From positions 1 through 64,000 of the forward strand of contig NZ_CAKMHQ010000048.1 of the NCBI RefSeq assembly GCF_927312905.1: a stretch of DNA of 64,000 nt, in the 5' to 3' direction. This document shows, piece by piece, positions 4,548 to 25,173 of the stretch (the stretch's first letter is position 1; each line of letters opens with the position of its first letter). The notes below the pieces were generated by a model that saw nothing but the letters and a program-made list of their open reading frames with translations, had not been told where the DNA came from and made no database searches. This DNA is from Candidatus Nitrotoga sp. 1052 (GTDB lineage: Bacteria; Pseudomonadota; Gammaproteobacteria; Burkholderiales; Gallionellaceae). A program made the position numbers and the translations under genes.

Positions 4548-5555
4548 ATGAAGAGATTAATACTTGCCTCTGCCATCGCCATGTCGATAGGGGTTACTGC
4601 CGCTAATGCAACAAGCGTTGTTAATATCGATCCTGATGGTATAGTTGTCGGGGATCCATCTCTAGCCGTTGGTGCACTAGGATGGGGAAACGGAAATGCG
4701 ATATCTGTCCCGCGGACTAATACTTTAGACGACACCTTTCAAACCTACGCCCACGTTGGTTTGGACGCCTTCATTGATCCAAATGGCACCCCCATTGGGG
4801 GCTTGAACCTAAACAATGCGGGGGGGTATGAGTGGACCATGGTCACTGGTTTCCAAGAGGTGGTGTCATCTCATTCTGGTACAATACCAAACGATACCGC
4901 TACTTTTAAGGTGATACCGGGTGGAAACAACTTTTTCAAAATTTATTACGATGTATTAAGGAATGCGGATAATCTGACCGGTAAGGGCTTTAATAATGGG
5001 ACTCTGATCCTCTCCGGCACGGTTCTACCATTCGATATTACAACAGGCTATGGCGCCAGTTCTTTCAACACAACTGGTGGGTGCACAATAGATCCTATTA
5101 CTGGCGCGATCGTATCTTGCGGAAAACTGGATAGCTTCTTAACTAATAACTATCCGAATATTCAATCCGTGTCCGGTAATGGTTCTAGCCAATTACAGAT
5201 TGATGTTGGATTCGCCCACCCCGACTTTTTCAAGGCAGGATTAAGTTTACTCTCTGTAAATTTTGATACATTTCAGAATTTGCCTTATAGCCAGCAAAAC
5301 CCTTCTTCCAACTTCTTTGACGGTACCAGTTACTTTTGCGGTGCGGGCCCTATTACTTCAGGCACGGCTGCTCAAACTGCCGAACAGTGTGCCGCCAACA
5401 CATTGGGTTCCATCAACGGAATTAATGGTGAAAATATTGCGTTCCAAGTGCGCGGTACCAGTAGCTTCAATGTGCCTGAGCCGGCTTCCTTGGCTCTCTT
5501 GGGTATCGGTCTGAGCTGTCTTGGCTTTGCGCGTCGTCGCAAGTCACGCTCTTAA
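4548..5555 (+). CDS. PEP-CTERM sorting-domain protein (PepA-like, flocculation-associated type)
   Basis: This 335-residue secreted protein starts with a Sec signal peptide (MKRLILASAIAMSIGVTAAN, cleavage near ANA-TS). It ends with a classical exosortase signal: the motif VPEPASLALL, a hydrophobic helix, then the basic tail RRRKSRS. The mature part is Gly/Asn/Thr-rich and beta-prone with a few Cys, as in floc-associated PEP-CTERM proteins. Exosortase (EpsH) processes such proteins at the inner membrane before export with exopolysaccharide. AAGGAG lies 8 bp before the ATG. A sigma-54 promoter and a possible enhancer lie upstream, and a terminator follows. The PepA-like label rests on overall style and is less sure than the PEP-CTERM call. 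Confidence 0.85.
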   Translation: MKRLILASAIAMSIGVTAANATSVVNIDPDGIVVGDPSLAVGALGWGNGNAISVPRTNTLDDTFQTYAHVGLDAFIDPNGTPIGGLNLNNAGGYEWTMVTGFQEVVSSHSGTIPNDTATFKVIPGGNNFFKIYYDVLRNADNLTGKGFNNGTLILSGTVLPFDITTGYGASSFNTTGGCTIDPITGAIVSCGKLDSFLTNNYPNIQSVSGNGSSQLQIDVGFAHPDFFKAGLSLLSVNFDTFQNLPYSQQNPSSNFFDGTSYFCGAGPITSGTAAQTAEQCAANTLGSINGINGENIAFQVRGTSSFNVPEPASLALLGIGLSCLGFARRRKSRS

Positions 5556-6114: not shown

Positions 6115-6600
6115 ATGGGAAAACGTTATTCACAAGCATTTATCGAGCAGGCGTTAATCAAGGTATATTCGCGTGGAGAGCGGACGATACAGTCGGTCGC
6201 GGAAGAGCTGAATGTGAACTGTCATACGGTAAAAAATTGGATGAAAAGAAAAAAAGCGAGCACGGTCGGCTTGTTGGTGACCAAAGAGCGTCGCCCGCAG
6301 GATTGGACGACCGAACAGCAGTTGGTGGCGTTGCATGAAACGCATAGTCTGACGGGTGAAGCCTTGCAGACATGGTGTCGTGAAAACGGCTTATTTACCC
6401 ATCATTTATCCAGCTGGAAAACAGCTTTTTGCGAGGACACAAAGGTTGCATCGGGAACGCGTGAAATACGGATATTGAAAGATGAAAATGAGCAACTCAA
6501 GCGTGAATTAATCCGCAAAGAGCGTGCGTTGGCGGAGGCAGCTGCATTGCTGATCCTACAAAAAAAGTTCCGCGCGCTCTGGGAGGACGAGGTCAAATGA
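6115..6600 (+). CDS. IS3-family transposase OrfA
   Basis: This 161-residue protein has an N-terminal helix-turn-helix (KRYSQAFIEQALIKVYSRG, with AEELNVNCHTVKNWMKR as the recognition part). A long charged leucine-zipper-like helix (about residues 110-145, EIRILKDENEQLKRELIRKE) follows; in IS3 elements this mediates OrfA/OrfAB multimerisation. GGGAAGGAGA lies just before the ATG. Its stop overlaps the ATG of orfB (ATGA at 6597). In active elements OrfA regulates transposition and is fused to OrfB by frameshifting; here orfB is broken. Confidence 0.8.
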   Translation: MGKRYSQAFIEQALIKVYSRGERTIQSVAEELNVNCHTVKNWMKRKKASTVGLLVTKERRPQDWTTEQQLVALHETHSLTGEALQTWCRENGLFTHHLSSWKTAFCEDTKVASGTREIRILKDENEQLKRELIRKERALAEAAALLILQKKFRALWEDEVK

Positions 6601-7669
6601 CTTCTCTTGCAGAGCGCAGTCAGATCATCACCTTGGTGCAGGAAGCCATGAATTCCGGCGCACTCCAGGATCGTGCCTGTACGGTTATCAACTTTAACGC
6701 ACGCACGTTGCAGCGCTGGCAGGTTGATCAGTAGCTGGGCGATCAACGCCCCTGTCGGACACAAACACCAACAAACAAGCTCAGTGTGTGGGAGCGTAAA
6801 CACATATTGACGGTTGCCAATTCGGACGAATTCGGTAGCCTGCCACCCAGTCAGATCGTGCCGATATTGGCGGATCGAGGGGAGTACATCGATTCTGAAT
6901 CAACGTCTTATCGCATCCTGAGAGCCGAGAACTTTCTCCGGCATCGGGGTGCCGAACGACCCGCACAACGCCGTCACAAACCGCGTGCCTCGGCGGAACC
7001 GCGCCCAATCAGTTGTTCAGTTGGGACATCACTTACCTGCCGACGCCGGTGAAAGGCATCTATTTTTACCTGTATTTGTTCATGGATATTTTTAGCCGGA
7101 AAGTTGTCGGCTGGCAGATTTATGATGCTGAAAGCAGTGAGCTGGCGAGCGATGTTATGCGTGATATTTGCGCACGGGAAGCCATCAAACCGGATCAGGT
7201 GGTACTACATTCGGACAATGGCAATCCGATGAAAGGCGCCACGATGCTGGCTACCTTGCAAGCACTGGGCGTCGCGCCGTGGTTTAGTCGTCCGGCGGTT
7301 AGCAACGATAATCCCTATTCAGAATCGCTGTTCAAGACCTTAAAATACCGACCTGCTTATCCGCGCCGGGCGTTTGAAAGTATGCTCGCTGCAAGGCAAT
7401 GGGTTGGCTTATTTGTGCAATGGTACAACGAAGAACACCGACACAGCGCCATCAACTTTGTGACCCCGGCAGAGCGCCATGCTGGCCTCGACACGGCATT
7501 ATTGGAGAAGCGTGCCATCGTCTACGAGGCGGCAAAGAACAGATGCCCTGAACGTTGGAGCGGGGCCACACGAAATTGGCAGCCGATTCTCGTTGTGCAC
7601 CTGAATCCGGATCAACACATTAAAGACGAACATAAAAAAGGAGATTTAGCGCACAAAATTGCAGCATGA
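6597..7669 (+). pseudogene. IS3-family transposase OrfB, amber codon plus frameshift
   Basis: ATG at 6597 starts a frame that hits TAG at 6732-6734, in a place reading QVDQ-stop-LGDQRPCR, where Gln is expected. After it the same frame continues to about 7005 (ILTVANSDEFGSLPPSQIVPIL). A one-base shift near 7003-7012 then moves coding into the frame of 7013-7669. That part holds the DDE core: WDITYLPTP, LHSDNGNPMKGATM and SNDNPYSESLFKTLKY, with the D-35-E spacing typical of IS3. The product ends with HRHSAINFVTPAERH and a C-terminal RNW segment. Two independent lesions make it inactive. Confidence 0.8.
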
Positions 7670-7702
7670 ACAAAAGCATTCAGGCGACAACTAGCTTGAC
7701 AA

Positions 7703-8350
7703 TCACCGCTCAGAGGCGTGAATGTAATCCGCCCCAATCAGGTATGGAGTACGGATATCACGTACATCCGCCTGGCGCGCGGATTCGTGTACTTGGTGGC
7801 CGTGATTGACTGGTACTCGCGTAAAGTGCTGTCGTGGCGGTTATCGAATACACTGGATAGTGTGTTCTGTGTGGACTGTCTGGAGCAGGCATTACAGACA
7901 TATGGAACACCTGAGATATTCAACACCGATCAAGGCTGCCAGTTCACCAGCGAAGCGTTTACTGGCGTGCTCAAGGGTCACGGTATTGCCATCAGCATAG
8001 ATGGGCGTGGCAGGGCACTGGATAACATCTTTGTGGAACGGCTCTGGCGTAGCGTCAAACACGAAGACGTGTATTTGAAAGGCTATGCCACGATGTCTGA
8101 ATTGCTGATAGGTTTGGCAGAATACTTCGTGCATTACAACACAGAAAGACCGCACCAATCACTGGGCTACGAAACACCGGGTCATGTATACCGTACAGGA
8201 AGTGGTGGCGGCGCAAGGATTGTGGACAAATACTGTGAGAAAGAAAAAGCTCACCCAGAAATTGAAGCAAAAAAAACCAAAAACCGGGGCAGCGCCGTTC
8301 CGCTGCTTGAAGAAGGTTACCCTCTTAAACTCAGTGCATTATTGTCTTGA
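7703..8350 (+). pseudogene. 5'-truncated IS3-family OrfB (different subgroup)
   Basis: Coding begins abruptly at the right border of the neighbouring element with SPLRGVNVIRPNQVWSTDIT, which corresponds to the middle of an IS3 OrfB. It continues with the DDE core: DITYIRLARG, FNTDQGCQFTS and the Glu in RALDNIFVERLWRSVKHEDV, then ERPHQSLGYETP. It runs to a stop at 8350. The N-terminal half was removed by the insertion at 6062-7701. Weak starts (GTG 7718) exist but a functional transposase is unlikely. Its subgroup differs from that of the inserted element. Confidence 0.75.
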
Positions 8351-8354
8351 CGGA

Positions 8355-8650
8355 GGGGTCCACTGTACTACCGTTACCTCCCGCGGCAACGCGCGGAATT
8401 CGGTATTTCTCGATGATGAAGATCAAGAGTTGTTTTTTGTCTGCCTCGGCAAAGTGGTAGTGCGTTTTGGCTGGCTGTGTCACGCGTATTGCCTGATGGA
8501 CAATCACTATCATCTGCTTATCGAAACAACACCGGAGGGCAACCTGTCGCTGGGCATGCGGCAGTTGAACGGCTTCTATACCAGCGCTTCAACCGTCGTC
8601 ACGGTCGAGTACATGTGTATGTCACATGTCTTCACTCCGCTGTACAATGC
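8355..8650 (+). pseudogene. REP-associated tyrosine transposase (RAYT, Y1 family) remnant
   Basis: The frame reads VTSRGNARNSVFLDDEDQEL, then LGKVVVRFGWLCHAYCLMDNHYHLLIETTPEG. This contains the HUH-type NHYHLL signature of IS200-like/RAYT enzymes. After LGMRQLNGFYT a one-base loss near 8580 shifts the expected QRFNRRHGRV continuation to another frame. The N-terminal end and the catalytic-Tyr C-terminal helix are missing. RAYTs mobilise palindromic REP elements; this copy cannot, so any REP-like repeats nearby must depend on another enzyme. Confidence 0.65.
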
Positions 8651-8743
8651 TTCATACGTTGAAGCCTCAACCTGCATACGTGGCAATCCTGAGCACGAGT
8701 TGAACGCTGTGGAGAGTAGGATCGGGAATTAGGGTCACCTATA

Positions 8744-9851
8744 GACCCGGCACGATTTATAAATGAATTTATATTGGTTTTCGATGTCTCTGTGGTATGG
8801 AAAAAGAAGATGCCCGCAAGCAGTCGCGAGAAGTACTGCATGAACGACGCAAGCAAGTCATTCGTATGCACCCCAAAGGCGTGGCGGTGATGGAGATCGT
8901 GGCGCAAACCGGACTGAGCTGGACGGCAGTCAATACGGCGCTGCGGTTGTATAAGGCTGAAGGTTCGGGGGCACTCAAGCCCTGCGTTCGGGGCAAAAAA
9001 CCTGGCAGTGGACGTCGCTTGATGGTTAGCCAAGAGCTGACGATTCAGCAAACCATCTGCGACAAACGCCCGGAACAACTCAAGATGGATTTTGCGCTAT
9101 GGAGCAGGCCCACCGTGCGCCAGCACATTGAGCTGGCGCATGGTATCAAGCTGTCTATTCGGGCAGTAGGCAACTATTTGGCACGTTGGGGTTTACACCA
9201 CAAAAACCCATCAAAAAAGCATATGAGCAGCGCCCTGAAGCTGTCCAGGCTTGGCTTGATGAACAGTATCCGGCCATTGAAGCCAGAGCAAAAACCGAAG
9301 GTGCGGAAATTCACTGGGGCGACGAGACGGCGCTAGTCAACACGGATGTCAGAGGCAGGAGCTATGCGCCGGTGGGCAAGACACCTGTGACGTTCGCAGT
9401 AGGCGGCACGCGCCACAAGCTATCGATGATTGCGACGGTAACCAATCAGGGTAAAACGCGCTGGATGATTATTGATGAGGCCTTTAACTCTGACAAGCTC
9501 ATTGAATTCCTGGAGGCGCTCATCAAGGATACAGACCGCAAAGTGTTTCTCATACTGGACAACTTGAGAGTTCATCACAGCAAACCTGTAAAGGCTTGGG
9601 CTGCCGAGAACGCACAGAAAATCGAGTTGTTCTACTTGCCCAGCTACAGCCCTGAACTCAACCCCGAAGAAAGACTGAATGCGGATCTCAAGCACGTCAT
9701 CTCTTCAAAGGTGCCAGTACGCACCAAGGCAAAACTCAGAGCTGCCGCGACTGATCACATGACCATGCTTGAGCAAAACCCCGAACGCGTGCGCCGATTT
9801 CGGCGACCCAAAAGTCGCCTACGCGGCTTCATGAATAATTCGTGCCGGATC
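8744..9851 (+). mobile_element. IS630-family insertion sequence
   Basis: The terminal inverted repeats are imperfect: GACCCGGCACGATTTATAAA from 8744, and a right end whose complement starts GATCCGGCACGAATTATTCA at 9851. TA precedes the left end, as expected for the IS630/Tc1 target; the right flank reads AATA, so one border may be off by a base or two. The single transposase gene is split by a one-base frame change. Confidence 0.7.
8797..9850 (+). pseudogene. IS630-family transposase, split by a -1 frame change
   Basis: The first frame (from ATG 8797) encodes the paired HTH domain, including IRMHPKGVAVMEIVAQTGLS and RPTVRQHIELAHGIKLSIRA. Near 9187-9191 the frame changes at TTGGGGTTT: the first frame would run on to a short unrelated tail, while the correct continuation (GFTPQKPIKKAYEQ) is in the -1 frame. 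That frame carries IHWGDETALVNT, FLILDNLRVHHSK and YSPELNPEERLNADLKH, the DDE residues of IS630. A deletion in a G run or -1 slippage could both explain it. The second frame has no stop inside the element and reads out to 10061. Confidence 0.75.
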
Positions 9852-9914
9852 AATATTACATTGCCTACAAGGAGAGAGTTACTTTCAATCCAGAATGTAG
9901 ACCCTAAGTTGCTA

Positions 9915-10721
9915 CTATTTTCGTTTAAGAGCAGCTCTCTGCAAAGAGGGTGTATTGTCTGTCGGTTTCGCCATCTTCCGTTCCATTCGCTTACTGTGTT
10001 GTTGCAAATTATCACTCAACTGGCTAATAATTTCCGAAGCCGCACTAATAATTTGATTTGAGCCGAACCCTCCTCGGGCCATTTCTTTGTAGAAGGATTT
10101 TGCAAATATTTTCGCCACTTGATCAGGATTGTGGAAAACGCTTTCCAAAGATGCGCCCATATTATTTTGGGCTTCTTGGACCAGCGCCAGTTGGGCAAAG
10201 CGTGAATTCAGAATGCTCTGCAATTGGATTGTCTGGATCGATTTACCGATGAATAAGGCAACCACATTAAGGAGATTCAAGTCAACCAGATTGAATGCGC
10301 AACCGTGCATGTGATCACTTATGTTAACTACACCTACAATTTGCCCACTGATGGTAATAGGCGATGAAATCAGACTCTTACCTGGTTCACTTGCGCGTCG
10401 AGCCAATTTTGCAAACTCCGAGTAGTTAATATCTTCAATCAACAAAGATTGCCCAGTTGCAATTACATAGCCAGCAATACCCTCGCCCTTCCCTATCAAT
10501 TCTTTATAAGCTGCAGCTGGCATTGGACCGTAGCTAGCGCACACACTCATAAGCAAATTGTCGGATTTGCCATCATTCAGCAGCATGATCGAACAATTGA
10601 TGGCGCTCAATATTTTTGCCGTCATTTCCGCGAGTTGCGCGAGATTGTCATTAAGATTGCCCTTTTCTAAAAAACTGGACAAATCCTGAAGCTTGATCAA
10701 CGGAGTTTCTACATCACCCAT
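9915..10721 (-). CDS. GAF-domain protein at the end of the HPr-rel-A cassette
   Basis: This 268-residue cytosolic protein has no signal peptide. A GAF domain spans about residues 20-165 (MTAKILSAINCSIMLLNDGK, GKGEGIAGYVIATGQSLLI, LISSPITISGQIVGVVNISD), followed by a helical tail of 100 residues with a basic end (KRMERKMAKP, ALKRK). There is no output domain, so it may act as a small-ligand or redox sensor that binds a partner. AAGGATA lies shortly before the ATG at 10721. It is the last gene of a five-gene minus-strand series and lies 121 bp after the nucleotidyltransferase. It is just upstream of the IS630 border, so gene order beyond it may have been altered. Confidence 0.7.
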   Translation of the reverse strand: MGDVETPLIKLQDLSSFLEKGNLNDNLAQLAEMTAKILSAINCSIMLLNDGKSDNLLMSVCASYGPMPAAAYKELIGKGEGIAGYVIATGQSLLIEDINYSEFAKLARRASEPGKSLISSPITISGQIVGVVNISDHMHGCAFNLVDLNLLNVVALFIGKSIQTIQLQSILNSRFAQLALVQEAQNNMGASLESVFHNPDQVAKIFAKSFYKEMARGGFGSNQIISAASEIISQLSDNLQQHSKRMERKMAKPTDNTPSLQRAALKRK

Positions 10722-10842: not shown

Positions 10843-11964
10843 TCATTCAGGCTTAGGTGAAATGAAAGCCTTATGGAAAAGATGACGCACAAGAAGCAAG
10901 GGTGGCATACGTAACCAGGTTGCGCGTACATAAAGTAACTGCCGCGCTGCACCGGTCAACCAATCAGAGCAACTCTTGTGGACTGGCATGAGCGCGCGTT
11001 CAAAAAGTTGATCTGTAAATATCAAGGTTAACGGGTTGGGGCGACCACTTTTGGCTGCTTCCATCATGCCTGAGGGAATGGGCGTATTCAATAGATGTAC
11101 CGCATATCGCAAGGCGTAAAAAAGCGGTCGCGTCAACTCAAGCTCCTGTGCTCGCACAGCTAGATTAGGCCAGAACGCTGGCAACTTACTGAAATGACGT
11201 AACAAACTATCAATGTCAACCAAATCCCGCAGACCCTGATCCAGTTGATCATTATGGAAAAGGTGGACAGCACTGTGGAGCACCATATCGGCTGGGGCGA
11301 ATACCTTTAAATCGTCGTAACCATCAAGTGGCTGTGCCGCTGCCAGGAGCTTTGCCGAATCAGGGTGAAGAGCTGCCGTTTCCGGCAAAATCGCATGATG
11401 CACGTCAATGACAGTCATCCGTTTAATATGCTGCATAGGCGGCAATTCGTGCATCCATGTGCGATAGTAGCGCTGGTCATAGGCATCGTGATGCGTCGCT
11501 GCCCAACCATGAAGCATCAAGGCGGCTTCTACAGCATTGAGACTATCTTTAGGTACAATGATGTCAATATCGGAGAATAGTCGCCCTTTGGCGGGCGGCA
11601 ATTTTGCCATGACATAGGCAGCGCCCTTGAGGAGAATGACTGGCACCCCTACTTTCGCCAATGCCTTTCGAATTAGGGTTATTTCCCAATGAACAGCTTG
11701 AACATGTCTTTCAGAGATTACGCGTGACCATTCCAGATGTTCGCGGGGTTTTGGCGGCACCTGTTCGAGTAAGCCGCGTTCGTCCAGTAAAATGCAAATG
11801 CGTGCCAATAGATTGGCGCGTCGTGCTTGGCGTATGAGTAAATCCCAGTCTGGCAGACTTAGGGAAATCAATGCTTCGGGCTCTCGGAGCGCTTGTAATA
11901 TTAAGTAATTGGGGATCACATTTGGTATGTCTGTCAAATATAATGTGATGAATCGTTTTACCAC
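10843..11964 (-). CDS. Nucleotidyltransferase family protein (NTP_transf_5 type)
   Basis: This protein of up to 373 residues has a minimal nucleotidyltransferase core: VILLKGAAYVMAKLP, then GRLFSDIDIIVPKDSL (about residues 118-150), where SDIDI gives the two metal-binding Asp. A His-rich segment (THHDAYDQRYYRTW, VIDVHHAILPETA) and a helical C-terminal half follow. Related proteins occur in lasso-peptide clusters beside HprK-like kinases and in HPr-rel-A cassettes; they are thought to transfer nucleotides to peptides or proteins. The GTG at 11964 is the longest start, but conserved sequence begins near LREPEAL, so the true start may be 20-30 codons later. It follows the kinase by 112 bp. Confidence 0.8.
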   Translation of the reverse strand: MVKRFITLYLTDIPNVIPNYLILQALREPEALISLSLPDWDLLIRQARRANLLARICILLDERGLLEQVPPKPREHLEWSRVISERHVQAVHWEITLIRKALAKVGVPVILLKGAAYVMAKLPPAKGRLFSDIDIIVPKDSLNAVEAALMLHGWAATHHDAYDQRYYRTWMHELPPMQHIKRMTVIDVHHAILPETAALHPDSAKLLAAAQPLDGYDDLKVFAPADMVLHSAVHLFHNDQLDQGLRDLVDIDSLLRHFSKLPAFWPNLAVRAQELELTRPLFYALRYAVHLLNTPIPSGMMEAAKSGRPNPLTLIFTDQLFERALMPVHKSCSDWLTGAARQLLYVRATWLRMPPLLLVRHLFHKAFISPKPE

Positions 11965-12076
11965 CGCCTAATCCAATCTTCGCCAGAGAGGGCGAGGAAC
12001 TCGAATCACTTCCTTTAGAGGGAAGGCTGGGGCAGCGTGATTGCAAATAGCCTATAATTCATTAGCATTCATACGA

Positions 12077-12997
12077 CTACTTACTGGAGGGTTGCGGCTT
12101 TAACGCGCCAAATATTTCAATGGCATCATCCAGTTTGCTGTACGTAAAATCATAGCACAGAGACGCATCAATTAAACTCGCCATGGTCTTAAAGCCATTG
12201 AGTCCAAGAAGACTATAATTAAAAGAGTTATCCGCAACCCGCATGAAAGCGCGGGATTGAGGCAATGTCTCCAAACAAGTCGTAGCACCAGCCTGATATT
12301 TTGGAAAAATAACCCATGCAACCTGTGCGACCTCTGTCGCTCGAGCTATGCTATCAGCTGGTGCTTTCATATGGGCAACCGTGCCCTTTATCGTATCTGC
12401 CACCTTGCGGCTGAAAATCGCATTTTGTTCATAACGTCTGATGATTTCGATAGATTCGTTTTTTAAGCTGACGGGGCGCGGAAGCGGGATGAGTTTCCCA
12501 TCAACAACACGAACCAAAGCAAGCTCATCAGACAGCAATCTCCACCCGCGGTTTACCAAGGCTGCGCACAGGGTACTTTTACCCGAGCCAGGAGGCGCGG
12601 GCATAATTGCGGCATAACCACCTTTTTCAACTACTGCCGCATGAATCATCAAACAGTGGTTCACGTGATTTGATACGCACCAATTAAGCCCCCACTCCAA
12701 CATGGGAAATGCCTGGTCTAACGGCAGAGGTTTAAATATGGTGTTTCCATCAAATAAAAACAACACCTGTGGCTTGAACCATCGCCGCAGGTTACGTGGG
12801 TGAACAAGACTAATGTGAAAGTCCGCAAAGCCATCTTGTTCAACTAAGGGATAATCGGCATAAAGCAAACCGATACCTTTAGCCACACTTGGAATCGTAG
12901 TTTTGAGGTGCGTAATAAAAGAGCCGGTTTGCAGATATATCCCCGTTTTTTTAAGACGGAGTTTAAGTTCTGATGGAGTTAATGCAGAAACATTCAA
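12077..12997 (-). CDS. HprK-related kinase A
   Basis: This 306-residue protein has a P-loop kinase core resembling the C-terminal domain of HPr kinase. H119 lies in MIHAAVVEKGG before the Walker A motif APPGSGKST (134-142), and SDELALV and PRPVSLKN segments follow, as in HprK-like kinases. The N-terminal 110 residues are unlike the HprK N-domain. Related enzymes in lasso-peptide clusters phosphorylate a serine at the peptide C-terminus. No HPr or PTS gene is nearby. It starts 2 bp after the PqqD-like gene and belongs to the HPr-rel-A gene set, whose role is not established. The neighbouring Tat protein is the obvious candidate substrate (inference). Confidence 0.85.
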   Translation of the reverse strand: MNVSALTPSELKLRLKKTGIYLQTGSFITHLKTTIPSVAKGIGLLYADYPLVEQDGFADFHISLVHPRNLRRWFKPQVLFLFDGNTIFKPLPLDQAFPMLEWGLNWCVSNHVNHCLMIHAAVVEKGGYAAIMPAPPGSGKSTLCAALVNRGWRLLSDELALVRVVDGKLIPLPRPVSLKNESIEIIRRYEQNAIFSRKVADTIKGTVAHMKAPADSIARATEVAQVAWVIFPKYQAGATTCLETLPQSRAFMRVADNSFNYSLLGLNGFKTMASLIDASLCYDFTYSKLDDAIEIFGALKPQPSSK

Positions 12998-12999
12998 AA

Positions 13000-13278
13000 T
13001 CAGCTAAATTCTATCAGTCCAAGCGTATTAAGCTCATTGAGAAGATGTTCAATTTGAAATGAAAATTCCTCATGCATTATATTGTCGGCTTGTAGCCGTG
13101 GGGCAAGCGCTTCAGTCAATAGTAACGCGTTTAATGGCGATTGCCGTAATTCCAACAGCACCTGAGCAGCGGCTGAACCAAGCAGGTGTGTATCTCCCGA
13201 AAGTTTATTATAAAACACCAATTCATCATCCCATGAGCAGCAGTTAACTGCTTGATCGGAAATTACTTGCCATTTCAT
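13000..13278 (-). CDS. PqqD-related peptide-binding protein of the HPr-rel-A system
   Basis: A 92-residue protein with the winged-helix RRE/PqqD fold pattern: strands in KWQVISDQAV and DELVFYNKLSGDTHLLGSAA, then helices around AAQVLLELRQSP and EFSFQIEHLLNELNTLGLIEF. PqqD-like domains bind leader or target peptides and present them to modifying enzymes. Here the gene directly precedes the HprK-related kinase (2 bp gap), so it probably recruits the kinase target. It follows the Tat-signal protein by about 56 bp. The ATG at 13278 has a weak ribosome site. The family match is by pattern and context. Confidence 0.8.
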   Translation of the reverse strand: MKWQVISDQAVNCCSWDDELVFYNKLSGDTHLLGSAAAQVLLELRQSPLNALLLTEALAPRLQADNIMHEEFSFQIEHLLNELNTLGLIEFS

Positions 13279-13334
13279 ATTTTATCAGTATTTTTGAGGG
13301 GAGAATAAGGCCGGAATCTGGTTATGACGATAAT

Positions 13335-14075
13335 TCAACTCTGAGTTAGACTCAAATATTCAATAATTTGTGAAGCATTCCAAGTTACACCTGCAGTTGG
13401 AGAAAAAGTACCACTTGCTTGCCATTCATAGAACATCGATTGAATAGTTGATACAGTCAAAAAAGGAGTAGCGCCACTTCTCGCACGAAGTAATGCTATT
13501 ACAAGATGTTTTAATAGTTCTTGTGTTTGGAAAGGGGGGTTCGGAGGTGCACTTACAGAAGCAGACGTTGGCGGCGTTATATTGTTTGTGCCCTTGCCCT
13601 TTTGTGCCTGAGAATTGGAACCAGATGAAGCGCGAAACGCCAACATGTAGCTCGCAGCCCCCAATTTACCCTTCTGCACCTGCACTGGAACGTTTACACT
13701 TGCAAGTCGAGGCTCCGGCCAAGGAGTTGTCAGCATAGCCGACAAAAGTCGGCTGTTATATGAAGCATTCGGTAGACTTAACGGGAATGCGCCTATCAAT
13801 GTTTCGTCTGGATCTGCGGGAAGTGTAGCGGTTCGCATGGCAGGGGGACAGTCACCATGCTGGCTGGTATTGCCAGATACGAATCCAGATGGTGACAAGC
13901 AAAACGTTTGACCCAATACGGGCCTACTAGCAAGAGTTAGAATTATCCCTGATGCAGCCAAACCAGACGTAGCAAACCGTCTGCGAGATTCGCCTGAAAA
14001 CTTTATTTGATCAGCTGCATCCTGGGATAATTGTTGTTTTGTCGGCTCATCATTTTGATCCACATTGATAGTCAT
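13335..14075 (-). CDS. Tat-signal protein, putative HPr-rel-A partner or substrate
   Basis: A 246-residue protein when started at the ATG at 14075, which has AAGGAT 8 bp upstream; the frame is open to 14237 but the extra N-terminus looks non-coding. Residues 30-55 hold a twin-arginine signal (SRRRFATSGLAASGIILTLA) preceded by a long polar n-region. The mature part has two Cys near its start (FCLSPSGFVSGNTSQHGDC), a Ser/Asn/Gln-rich low-complexity linker and a helical C-terminal domain ending EYLSLTQS. I do not recognise a catalytic fold. It is the first gene of the kinase/nucleotidyltransferase operon. Its C-terminal Ser recalls the phosphorylation site used by lasso-peptide kinases; substrate status is a hypothesis. 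Confidence 0.7.
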   Translation of the reverse strand: MTINVDQNDEPTKQQLSQDAADQIKFSGESRRRFATSGLAASGIILTLASRPVLGQTFCLSPSGFVSGNTSQHGDCPPAMRTATLPADPDETLIGAFPLSLPNASYNSRLLSAMLTTPWPEPRLASVNVPVQVQKGKLGAASYMLAFRASSGSNSQAQKGKGTNNITPPTSASVSAPPNPPFQTQELLKHLVIALLRARSGATPFLTVSTIQSMFYEWQASGTFSPTAGVTWNASQIIEYLSLTQS

Positions 14076-20919: not shown

Positions 20920-23900
20920 TTATTCGAGCTGCATTATTTGCACTGACTGGCTCTTTTTTTCTGCAAACACCAGTGCTTCGTCCAATATATTCAGGAACTC
21001 ATTGACCTTAATCGGTTTAGTGAGATATTGGAAGAATCCCGCCGCCAGGCCGTTCTCGATGTCGCGTGGCATTGCATTGGCGCTCAGGGCAACGACCGGA
21101 ATGTGAGCCGTGGCCGAGTCGGCGCGCAGGATTTTCAGGGCTTCGAAGCCGCTGATGCCGGGCAGATTGATGTCCATCAGGATTACATCCGGGTGGGATG
21201 CGCGCGCAATCTCGATGCCGCTATTCCCGCTCACCGCCGTCAGCAGCCGAATATCGGGATAGCGCGCGATGATTTTTTCGACTAATTTCATGTTCGCCGG
21301 ATTATCCTCTACATAGAGCAGGGTGTGCAGCTTCGCTCCGCGACGCACAAGCGGTTGGGCCAATACCGATGCTTCGCACCCTTCCATGGAAAGGTGTGGC
21401 TCAGCGACCGAGATGAGTTCGAACCAGAACACGCTTCCCACACCGACGGTGCTTTCCACGCCGATTGCGCCCCCCATCAGTTCGACCAGTCGCTTAGCCA
21501 CCACGAGGCCGATGCCTGTGCCCTCCTCGCTGCCAGCCTCCTGTCCGAGACGGTTGAACGGCTGAAAGAGCTGCTCCATCTGTTCCGGAGGCAATCCCGC
21601 ACCGCTATCTTTGATGCTGATGCGAATGCGTCCGGGCGTGCTCTCGGTGCATTTCACCTCAACCGTTCCCTGCTTGATGTTGTATTTGATCGAGTTGGAA
21701 AGCAGGTTGATAAAAATCTGCTTCAACCGGGTTCGATCGGCACGGACATAGAGAGGGATGTCGAACTGGGGAAAGGTCAGTTTGATGCCACGCTGTTGCG
21801 CCTGTGGTTCGATCATGCCCTGGCATTCGAGCATGATTTCGGCCAGCGCCACCGGTTCCTGCGATATCGGTACCTGCCCGGACTCGATCACCGCGAGATC
21901 AAGGATCTCATTGATCAACTTCAGCAGATGCCATCCCGCCTGAAGAATATGGACTATGCTTTTCAGTTGTGAGGGCGTTGCCGGCGGGGAGTCGGACTCC
22001 ATCAGCTGGGCGAACCCGAGAATGGCATTGAGCGGGCTGCGCAGCTCATGGCTCATGCTGGAGAGGAAATCTGATTTGGCGAGGTTCGCCTTGTCCGCCA
22101 CAGCTCTGGCGCTCTCCAGCTCAATATTCTTTTCTCGCAGCGCCTGATCCAGGCGATTACGTTCTGTGACGTCGCGCGCCGCGGCGAACACGCCCTGTAG
22201 CCTCCTGTCCCGATCATAGAGAGTGGTTGCATTGAAGGACACCACGGTTTCCTTACCGTCCCTGGCACGCGCGGTGAGCTCGTAGTTGGTGACCTTCTTT
22301 TCGTTCAGCACCAGCTTAATGCCCGCCTCGGCCAGCTCCGGATCGGTGAAGTAATTCTTGAACGGCGCACCGATCAGCTCGTCTCGCGTGCAACCGGTGA
22401 GCGCCTCCATCTGCTTGTTGACGTCTGTAATGATGCCGGATGGATCGGTAGTCATCAGCGCGTCGATGTTGGATTCGATGAGAGAGCGCGTGTAAAACTG
22501 CTGGTCGCGCAGCCGCTGGTCGAGCTTCTTCTGCTCTTCCTCGATCTGCTTGCGCGCGGAATTGTCGGTACCGATCAGCAGGTAGCCGATGATGGCGTCT
22601 TGATCGTCGCGCAGCGCCGTAACTGAGACGACCGCCGGGAAGCGGCTGCCATCCTTGCGGATGTAGGTCAGTTCGTAGATGTCCTCGATGCCGCGCGAGG
22701 CCTTGAACACCAATGCTTCGAAGCCCGGCGTAATCGGGGTGCCGAGCTCGGCGCTCAATGCCTTGGCACGCGCGATCACTTCCTTCGGATCGGAAATATC
22801 GGCCGGGGTGATCTTGTTCATCACGTCGGCGGCCGCGTAGCCCAGCATGCGTTCCGCACCGACGTTGAAGATCTGAATGACGCCCTTGGCATCAGTGGCA
22901 ATACTCGAGAAATTGGCGCTGTTGAAAATCGCGCTCTGCAGGGCTCCCGCTTTGAGCAGCGCCTCTTCCGCCTGCTTGCGCGCGGTGTTGTCCGTGCCGA
23001 TCAGCAGGTAGCCGATGATGGCGTCTTGATCGTCGCGTAGCGCGGTGACTGACACGACCGCCGGGAAGCGGCTGCCATCCTTGCGGATGTAGGTCAGTTC
23101 GTAGATGTCCTCGATGCCGCGCGAGGCCTTGAACACCAATGCTTCGAAGCCCGGCGTAATCGGGGTGCCGAGCTCGGCGCTCAATGCCTTGGCACGCGCG
23201 ATCACTTCCTTCGGATCGGAAATATCGGCCGGGGTGATCTTGTTCATCACGTCGGCGGCCGCGTAGCCCAGCATGCGTTCCGCACCGACGTTGAAGATCT
23301 GAATGACGCCCTTGGCATCAGTGGCAATACTCGAGAAATTGGCGCTGTTGAAAATCGCGCTCTGCAGGGCTCCCGCTTTGAGCAGCGCCTCTTCCGCCTG
23401 CTTGCGCGCGGTGTTGTCCGTGCCGATCAGCAGGTAGCCGATGATGGCGTCTTGATCGTCGCGCAGCGCCGTAACTGAGACGACCGCCGGGAAGCGGCTG
23501 CCATCCTTGCGGATGTAGGTCAGTTCGTAGATGTCCTCGATGCCGCGCGAGGCCTTGAACACCAATGCTTCGAAGCCCGGCGTAATCGGGGTGCCGAGCT
23601 CGGCGCTCAATGCCTTGGCACGCGCGATCACTTCCTTCGGATCGGAAATATCGGCCGGGGTGATCTTGTTCATCACGTCGGCGGCCGCGTAGCCCAGCAT
23701 GCGTTCCGCACCGACGTTGAAGATCTGAATGACGCCCTTGGCATCAGTGGCAATACTCGAGAAATTGGCGCTGTTGAAAATCGCGCTCTGCAGGGCTCCC
23801 GCTTTGAGCAGCGACTCTTCCGCCTGCTTGCGCGCGGTGTTATCACGTAAAATGCCGGTGAAGTAACGCTGGCCACCCAGCCACATCTCGCTTACCGCTA

Positions 23901-25173
23901 TCTCCATCGGGAAAATGCTGCCATCTTTGCGCCGGCCCACAACCTCGCGTCCGAGACCGATGGCACGCGCCTCATCGCTCGCACTGTAATACTCGAGAGA
24001 CCCATTACCATTGTGCTGGTCTCGATCAAGCTCTGGTATCAGCATGCTGAATTTTTGTCCGCTGAGTTCTGCGGCGGTATAGCCAAACATTCGCTCAGCG
24101 GCCGGGTTAACTGTCTCGACGGTGCCGTCGATGGCATGCAGGGTGATTATGCCGTCCACCACGGTATTGAGTATCGTCTGGATCTGCGCAGCACTGTCGC
24201 GCAAGGCCTGCTGCACTGCATATTCGCCGGTGACATCGCGGAATACCAGAACGGCACCGATTACCTGAGCATCGCGGTCGCGAATTGGTGCGCAACTGTC
24301 GGCGATATCGCACTCGCTACCACCGCGTGCTATCAGTACGGTGTGGTTGGCCAAGCCTTGTACCGTGCCATGCGCCAATGTTTCCATCACCGGGATAACG
24401 GCGGGTTGACGGGTTTCTTTGTTGATGATGTTAAAAATCTCGTCCACCGGACGACCGGTGGCTTCCGCCTGCGTCCAACCGGTGAGCTGTACGGCAAGAG
24501 GATTCAGGAGCGTCACACGCGCTTCGGCATCGGTGGCTATCACTGCATCACCGATGGAGTTGAGCGTAACTGCGAGCTTTTCCTCGCTGACCTGCAAGGT
24601 GACGTTGGTCCGTTGCAGTTGTTTATTTGTCTCCTCCTGAATATCAAGCAAACGCTGTCGCTCTGCTTCGATCTGCTTGCGCGCGGTGTTGTCGGTGCCG
24701 ATCAGCAGGTAGCCGATGATGGTGTTTTGAGCATCACGTAGTGCGGTGACTGACACGACCGCCGGGAAGCGGCTGCCATCCTTGCGGATGTAGGTCAGTT
24801 CGTAGATGTCCTCGATGCCGCGCGAGGCCTTGAACACCAATGCTTCGAAGCCCGGCGTAATCGGGGTGCCGAGCTCGGCGCTCAATGCCTTGGCACGCGC
24901 GATCACTTCCTTCGGATCGGAAATATCGGCCGGGGTGATCTTGTTCATCACGTCGGCGGCCGCGTAGCCCAGCATGCGTTCCGCACCGACGTTGAAGATC
25001 TGAATGACGCCCTTGGCGTCGGTGGCGATACTCGAGAAGTTAGCGCTATTGAAAATCGCGCTTTGTAAAGCTCCCGCCTTGAGCAGCGCCTCTTGACGTC
25101 GGTCTTCGGTGATAACCTCAGCCGTGCCAGCGGCGGGGTTGAGAATGGCGGGATCGCGGATTTTTTTGGACAT
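20920..25173 (-). CDS. Multi-PAS hybrid sensor histidine kinase with receiver
   Basis: A 1417-residue cytoplasmic sensor without membrane helices. There are at least seven PAS domains: one of a repeated type (about 30-165), two different ones (about 195-320 and 325-450), three near-identical tandem copies of the repeated type (about 453-880), and one more (about 895-1020). Then come HisKA (FLSSMSHELRSPLNAILGFA), HATPase (ESTVGVGSVFWFEL end) and a receiver (LYVEDNPANMKLVEKI, VILMDINLPGISGFEALKIL, LTKPI). It should autophosphorylate on the H-box His and pass phosphate to its own Asp. No partner regulator lies nearby. The ATG at 25173 has an AGAGG site. The tandem repeats point to recent expansion or gene conversion. 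Confidence 0.9.
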   Translation of the reverse strand: MSKKIRDPAILNPAAGTAEVITEDRRQEALLKAGALQSAIFNSANFSSIATDAKGVIQIFNVGAERMLGYAAADVMNKITPADISDPKEVIARAKALSAELGTPITPGFEALVFKASRGIEDIYELTYIRKDGSRFPAVVSVTALRDAQNTIIGYLLIGTDNTARKQIEAERQRLLDIQEETNKQLQRTNVTLQVSEEKLAVTLNSIGDAVIATDAEARVTLLNPLAVQLTGWTQAEATGRPVDEIFNIINKETRQPAVIPVMETLAHGTVQGLANHTVLIARGGSECDIADSCAPIRDRDAQVIGAVLVFRDVTGEYAVQQALRDSAAQIQTILNTVVDGIITLHAIDGTVETVNPAAERMFGYTAAELSGQKFSMLIPELDRDQHNGNGSLEYYSASDEARAIGLGREVVGRRKDGSIFPMEIAVSEMWLGGQRYFTGILRDNTARKQAEESLLKAGALQSAIFNSANFSSIATDAKGVIQIFNVGAERMLGYAAADVMNKITPADISDPKEVIARAKALSAELGTPITPGFEALVFKASRGIEDIYELTYIRKDGSRFPAVVSVTALRDDQDAIIGYLLIGTDNTARKQAEEALLKAGALQSAIFNSANFSSIATDAKGVIQIFNVGAERMLGYAAADVMNKITPADISDPKEVIARAKALSAELGTPITPGFEALVFKASRGIEDIYELTYIRKDGSRFPAVVSVTALRDDQDAIIGYLLIGTDNTARKQAEEALLKAGALQSAIFNSANFSSIATDAKGVIQIFNVGAERMLGYAAADVMNKITPADISDPKEVIARAKALSAELGTPITPGFEALVFKASRGIEDIYELTYIRKDGSRFPAVVSVTALRDDQDAIIGYLLIGTDNSARKQIEEEQKKLDQRLRDQQFYTRSLIESNIDALMTTDPSGIITDVNKQMEALTGCTRDELIGAPFKNYFTDPELAEAGIKLVLNEKKVTNYELTARARDGKETVVSFNATTLYDRDRRLQGVFAAARDVTERNRLDQALREKNIELESARAVADKANLAKSDFLSSMSHELRSPLNAILGFAQLMESDSPPATPSQLKSIVHILQAGWHLLKLINEILDLAVIESGQVPISQEPVALAEIMLECQGMIEPQAQQRGIKLTFPQFDIPLYVRADRTRLKQIFINLLSNSIKYNIKQGTVEVKCTESTPGRIRISIKDSGAGLPPEQMEQLFQPFNRLGQEAGSEEGTGIGLVVAKRLVELMGGAIGVESTVGVGSVFWFELISVAEPHLSMEGCEASVLAQPLVRRGAKLHTLLYVEDNPANMKLVEKIIARYPDIRLLTAVSGNSGIEIARASHPDVILMDINLPGISGFEALKILRADSATAHIPVVALSANAMPRDIENGLAAGFFQYLTKPIKVNEFLNILDEALVFAEKKSQSVQIMQLE
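22546..23823 (-). repeat. Three tandem 426-bp repeats inside the PAS kinase gene
   Basis: Units 22546-22971, 22972-23397 and 23398-23823 each encode the same 142-residue PAS/PAC block (from LLKAGALQSAIFNSANFSS to GYLLIGTDNTARKQ). They differ by only a few bases, for example TGAGACGAC against TGACACGAC. A fourth, slightly more diverged unit lies at 24673-25098. The exact 426-bp period keeps the reading frame, so copy number could change by recombination without breaking the protein. Confidence 0.95.

Follow-up and report, generated by a model that had tools for sequence, protein, structure and literature searches.

A Tat-signal protein is a core component of the HPr-rel-A cassette and a candidate substrate for serine modification next to its signal peptide

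A gene for a protein with a twin-arginine (Tat) signal is a core component of the HPr-rel-A cassette. From the sequences and by analogy with known systems we infer, with slightly better than even confidence, that the cassette forms a system for the RRE-guided modification of serines, with the co-encoded Tat protein as its substrate. This reading is supported by the linkage and co-occurrence of the genes, the apparent integrity of the enzymes, the conservation of the leader and of a serine motif behind it, a group of related short peptides, and precedents for the chemistry.

In the window (the whole stretch of 64,000 nucleotides of Candidatus Nitrotoga DNA analyzed here), four minus-strand genes encode, in this order, the Tat-signal protein, a PqqD-like protein, HprK-related kinase A and an NTP_transf_5 protein, all at the coordinates given in a sequence-only reading of the same DNA. 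The Tat-signal protein (13335..14075, minus strand), which is the proposed substrate, has 246 residues and is a divergent Nitrotoga member of an unnamed family. It carries SRRRF (RR = residues 31-32), a hydrophobic stretch and SRPVLG and ends in ...SLTQS, so that the twin-arginine signal and the ending described earlier are both borne out. These features, a predicted cleavage site and the TatC encoded in the same genome make it a predicted Tat substrate. The predicted signal peptide comprises residues 1-55 (13911..14075, minus strand) and is proposed to serve as an RRE leader as well; just past its predicted cleavage site lies the conserved motif C59-LSPS63-GFVS67-GNTS71 (13863..13901, minus strand), the proposed modification site. 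The second gene (13000..13278, minus strand) encodes an RRE-like, PqqD-like peptide chaperone of 92 residues (TIGR04353, PqqD_rel_X; 53.2 bits against a cut-off of 35) and lies 2 nt upstream of the gene for the 306-residue kinase (12077..12997, minus strand; TIGR04352, HprK_rel_A; 401 bits against a cut-off of 200). With both proteins above the cut-offs of their models, the cassette is a member of the HPr-rel-A system. The fourth gene (10843..11964, minus strand) encodes a nucleotidyltransferase of 373 residues (PF14907, NTP_transf_5; 194 bits against a cut-off of 31). Neither a cyclase (macrolactam synthetase) nor a lasso B2 protease is encoded among the neighboring genes, as the sequence-only reading had also stated.

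That reading had further placed a GAF-domain protein behind the cassette. Such a gene is indeed present in the window (9915..10721, minus strand), but it adjoins the cassette only in Nitrotoga/Gallionellaceae loci; because this adjacency is local to one lineage, we dropped it as a cassette member and treat it as a neighbor only. Its 3' end is overlapped on the opposite strand by an ORF (9186-10061, plus strand) of a region with several transposase-like ORFs (6115-10061, plus strand), which separates the GAF gene from a gene for a PEP-CTERM protein (4548-5555, plus strand) that barely exceeds the cut-off for flocculation-associated PepA (NF033554). Elsewhere in the window, a 1417-residue sensor kinase (20920-25173, minus strand) contains near-identical repeated PAS-type units, encoded by a 426-nt tandem repeat in three copies (98% match) and a 300-nt copy at 24660-24959 (95%), which looks like a recent internal amplification.

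The Tat-signal gene accompanies the kinase almost universally. We searched 274 genomes of the window's class for HprK-related kinase A and found it above the cut-off in 27, about a tenth; a Tat-signal gene lay 5' of pqqD in all 26 of these loci for which upstream DNA was available, the most divergent ones (L090, L092, L097 and L099) being recognized by their leader and some of them by eye. A second, independent collection of 80 named loci, for which the kinase alone served as bait, included 78 that could be tested; in 76 of these the Tat gene is the immediate 5' neighbor of pqqD. In the two exceptions (L166 and L177), Tat homologues lie at another place in the locus, and L182, in which the upstream DNA is cut off, has two downstream. 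Across 61 related genomes the two sets are identical: 19 have both the kinase and the Tat family and 42 have neither (Fisher p about 3e-16, kinship ignored), and presence and absence vary even within the genus. The cassette also occurs outside the Gammaproteobacteria, in Malonomonas (L125), a Planctomycetaceae MAG (L156) and Rhodospirillales (L160).

The cassette enzymes look catalytically intact, as judged from their sequences. In the kinase, H119, the P-loop GxGKS/T (K140), D157 and E158 are invariant, and the kinase profile aligns with the HPr kinase 1jb1 over the His, the P-loop and the acidic pair. This likeness to HPr kinase/phosphorylase (1jb1, 2qmh, 1ko7) is distant (about 20 bits), and the cassette kinase differs in being linked to a Tat-signal gene rather than to a phosphotransferase system and in having Glu where those enzymes have their second catalytic Asp; the latter substitution weakens the serine-modification reading. 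In the nucleotidyltransferase, KG..Y and GR...DxD are kept in essentially all of 120 sequences. In the PDB, the PqqD profile best matches TbiB1 and TfuB1, which bind the leaders of lasso peptides, and by analogy this fits the earlier suggestion that the PqqD-like protein recruits the Tat protein.

Conservation within the partner family is concentrated at its N-terminal end. Among 102 non-redundant Tat partners, RR is present in 98-100% (a figure partly selected by the search pattern), and the leader has the form RRx(F/L)...TLxSRPVL(G/A). A basic residue (R or K) stands just before the cleavage site in 68%; a basic residue in this vicinity keeps a Tat signal off the Sec route. A leader pattern derived from the family fits 75 of the 102 partners but none of 24 generic Tat signals, and on this basis the leader appears more conserved than export alone should need. 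The predicted cleavage site is followed by CxxSGxxSGNxS, in which the Cys is kept in 99%, the first Ser in 96% and the second in 94%; the third Ser, at 71%, weakens the serine-modification reading. The first conserved Ser mostly lies 6-9 residues past the predicted cleavage site, and in alignment A3 S67 is invariant and C59 and S63 nearly so. The proline typical of RRE-bound leaders, too, speaks against the reading, because it is kept in only 44% of these leaders and is absent from the window protein.

Searches with the Tat family also returned proteins of 54-131 residues encoded beside weaker HprK-like kinases (L222, L223 and L262-L278; kinases below threshold; up to three tandem copies, in L264), often together with PqqD-like and NTP_transf_5 genes. 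The PqqD-like protein of L223 resembles the NCBIfam lasso chaperones but stays below their cut-offs. Within the hydrophobic stretch of the Tat signal, all 24 tabulated short peptides carry [YF]xxPx[VIL], usually at RR+9 and in one case with F for Y, and behind the signal all have Gly-Ser, mostly at RR+27; this uniformity is partly built in, because the leader profile used to collect them had a seed that already held the Y and the P. In a control of 25 generic Tat signals (PF10518 hits), a motif of this type occurs in one and a GS close by in four, but never the two together. Lasso RREs bind the motif [Y/W]xxPx[LVIFA] (PMC13381572). The short Tat-leader peptides are possibly an undescribed RiPP-like class.

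The cassette is close in design to the linear polyphosphorylated peptides (LPP) described in 2026, in which an RRE, an HprK-like kinase and an NTP transferase act on a precursor whose Ser3 after the leader is phosphorylated (PMC13381572). The window cassette likewise has a discrete RRE-like protein, an HprK-like kinase and an NTP transferase, and in both systems the N-terminus of the precursor is conserved and its C-terminus variable. In LPP the modified Ser lies just past a signal-peptidase-type cleavage site, and by analogy we propose the same here. LPP systems differ in belonging to Bacillota and in having their own SipW-like peptidase, an MsbA-like exporter, precursors of 35-200 residues and a YxxPxVLxHQ leader (PMC13381572), whereas we find a Tat signal on a usually folded protein of about 200 residues. 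The window cassette contains no SipW-like peptidase or MsbA-like transporter, the Tat signal standing in their place, and the leader of the window protein (GLAASGIILTL) lacks [Y/W]xxPx[LVIFA]. Phosphorylated lasso peptides (PadeK, ThcoK, SyanK, PsmK/PsmN; PMC9266682) share homologues of the HprK-like kinase, the nucleotidyltransferase and the RRE with the cassette but differ from it, because the cassette has no cyclase, B2 protease, short core peptide or conserved C-terminal Ser. The phosphate of pseudomycoidin is put on by PsmK, and PsmN attaches a hexose to it (PMC9266682).

A fifth component of the system is probably an exported, PDZ-less HtrA/trypsin-like protease, whose gene lies close to the cassette, variously arranged, in 40 of 125 loci. 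It is present in 22 of the 27 kinase genomes of the class scan versus 13 of the other 247, and among the relatives in 17 of 19 versus 3 of 42. In the window's genome it lies on a separate contig (G000:C29:44831-45574; L313) amid housekeeping genes.

Building on the gene set, the linkage and the motifs, we propose that the precursor would be bound at its Tat signal region by the PqqD-like chaperone, which would also hold the HprK-related kinase while this phosphorylates a Ser in CxxSGxxSGNxS just past the cleavage site. The nucleotidyltransferase would put a second group (a sugar or a nucleotide) on that phosphate, the folded and modified protein would be exported by Tat with removal of the signal, and the exported trypsin-like protease, encoded elsewhere, may process the product further. 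By analogy, the Tat signal would correspond to the leader, the serines behind the cleavage site to the acceptors and Tat to the exporter. A fuller version holds that the Tat signal itself is the leader read by the RRE, that kinase and nucleotidyltransferase decorate serines of the future N-terminus before folded export, that the protease is dedicated to the system, and that the system is widespread with payloads from tails of ~20 residues to domains of ~190; to this we give somewhat less than even credence.

An alternative that we regard as unlikely gives the Tat protein the role of a partner, receptor or regulator instead of that of the substrate and has the enzymes modify another protein, a peptide or a metabolite, possibly in connection with exopolysaccharide export. 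XrtA/PEP-CTERM exopolysaccharide genes border about one in four of the named loci, mainly those of Oxalobacteraceae, and the partner fold is conserved and confidently predicted, both of which would suit such a role; LPP clusters, too, lie in capsule loci (PMC13381572). Against it, the leader and the Ser motif are the most conserved part of the family and survive nearly alone in the L156 partner, which has just 85 residues and consists of the leader and a tail with ...GGTSGNMSGG.... Moreover, the Tat gene duplicates, with tandem copies at L154, L177 and L182, and also occurs away from the enzymes: the window's genome encodes a second partner of canonical form (G000:C37:12326-12973; L057:9327-9977, plus strand) apart from any kinase gene, PqqD gene or cassette. 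This orphan is 45-61% identical to the cassette partners of other species and 34% identical to the linked partner of the window, and it fits a substrate modified in trans. Based on the tandem copies and the orphan copy, the Tat protein behaves like a substrate.

Less probable still, and in our view quite improbable, is that the conserved Ser and Cys are structural and that the kinase and the nucleotidyltransferase modify another position of the Tat protein. The family has a second conserved Cys (89%) besides that of the motif (99%) as well as conserved W/F/N positions, suggesting a structured, perhaps disulfide-bonded domain. The model of the window protein is poor (pLDDT 59, good in the C-terminal part only), and statements about the fold therefore rest on that of a Thiobacillus homologue (L143; pLDDT 83, the mature part mostly above 90), which gave no PDB match at E <= 0.001 in a fold search. 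In this model the Ser/Cys region belongs to the predicted fold, so that its conservation could be structural, which weakens the serine-modification reading. However, the L156 partner indicates that the motif can exist without a folded domain, and every tabulated short peptide has Gly-Ser at the corresponding position. Finally, the sequence-only reading had proposed that the kinase and the nucleotidyltransferase modify the Tat protein at its C-terminal Ser, in the manner of PadeK in paeninodin. In favor of this are the terminal Ser of the window protein and the action of known lasso kinases on a Ser in that position (PMC9266682). We consider the proposal very improbable and reject a conserved C-terminal Ser/Thr acceptor, because the C-termini vary in sequence and length, an outcome that the sequence-only reading had itself named as refuting; they end in Ser in only 15 of 102 partners (background 8.5%) and in Ser or Thr in 18 of 102 (background about 16%), close to composition, and are N, K or S in the sister Nitrotoga proteins, with N or K in the close relatives. 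Thus, the parts of that reading that concern co-occurrence with a Tat protein and recruitment by the PqqD-like protein agree with the data, while its modification site does not; the sequences point to the conserved serines just past the signal peptide, and not the C-terminus, as the candidate sites.

The enzymes of the cassette are already named and their chemistry has precedents. The Tat partner family, by contrast, is matched by no Pfam or NCBIfam model, either in this cassette or as a family, and by no PDB entry by sequence or by fold search, and we found no description of the HPr-rel-A system or of Tat-linked RRE systems in the open-access literature. In the libraries and literature searched, the family, its motif, the short-peptide branch and the association with the protease therefore appear undescribed. 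A named enzyme set without a substrate, present in about a tenth of the sampled genomes of its class and scattered through other phyla, gains a candidate substrate, a motif and candidate residues. If the serine-modification reading is true, the signal peptide would be read twice, first by the modification enzymes and then by the Tat translocon, and RiPP-type enzymology would be linked to the export of whole proteins.
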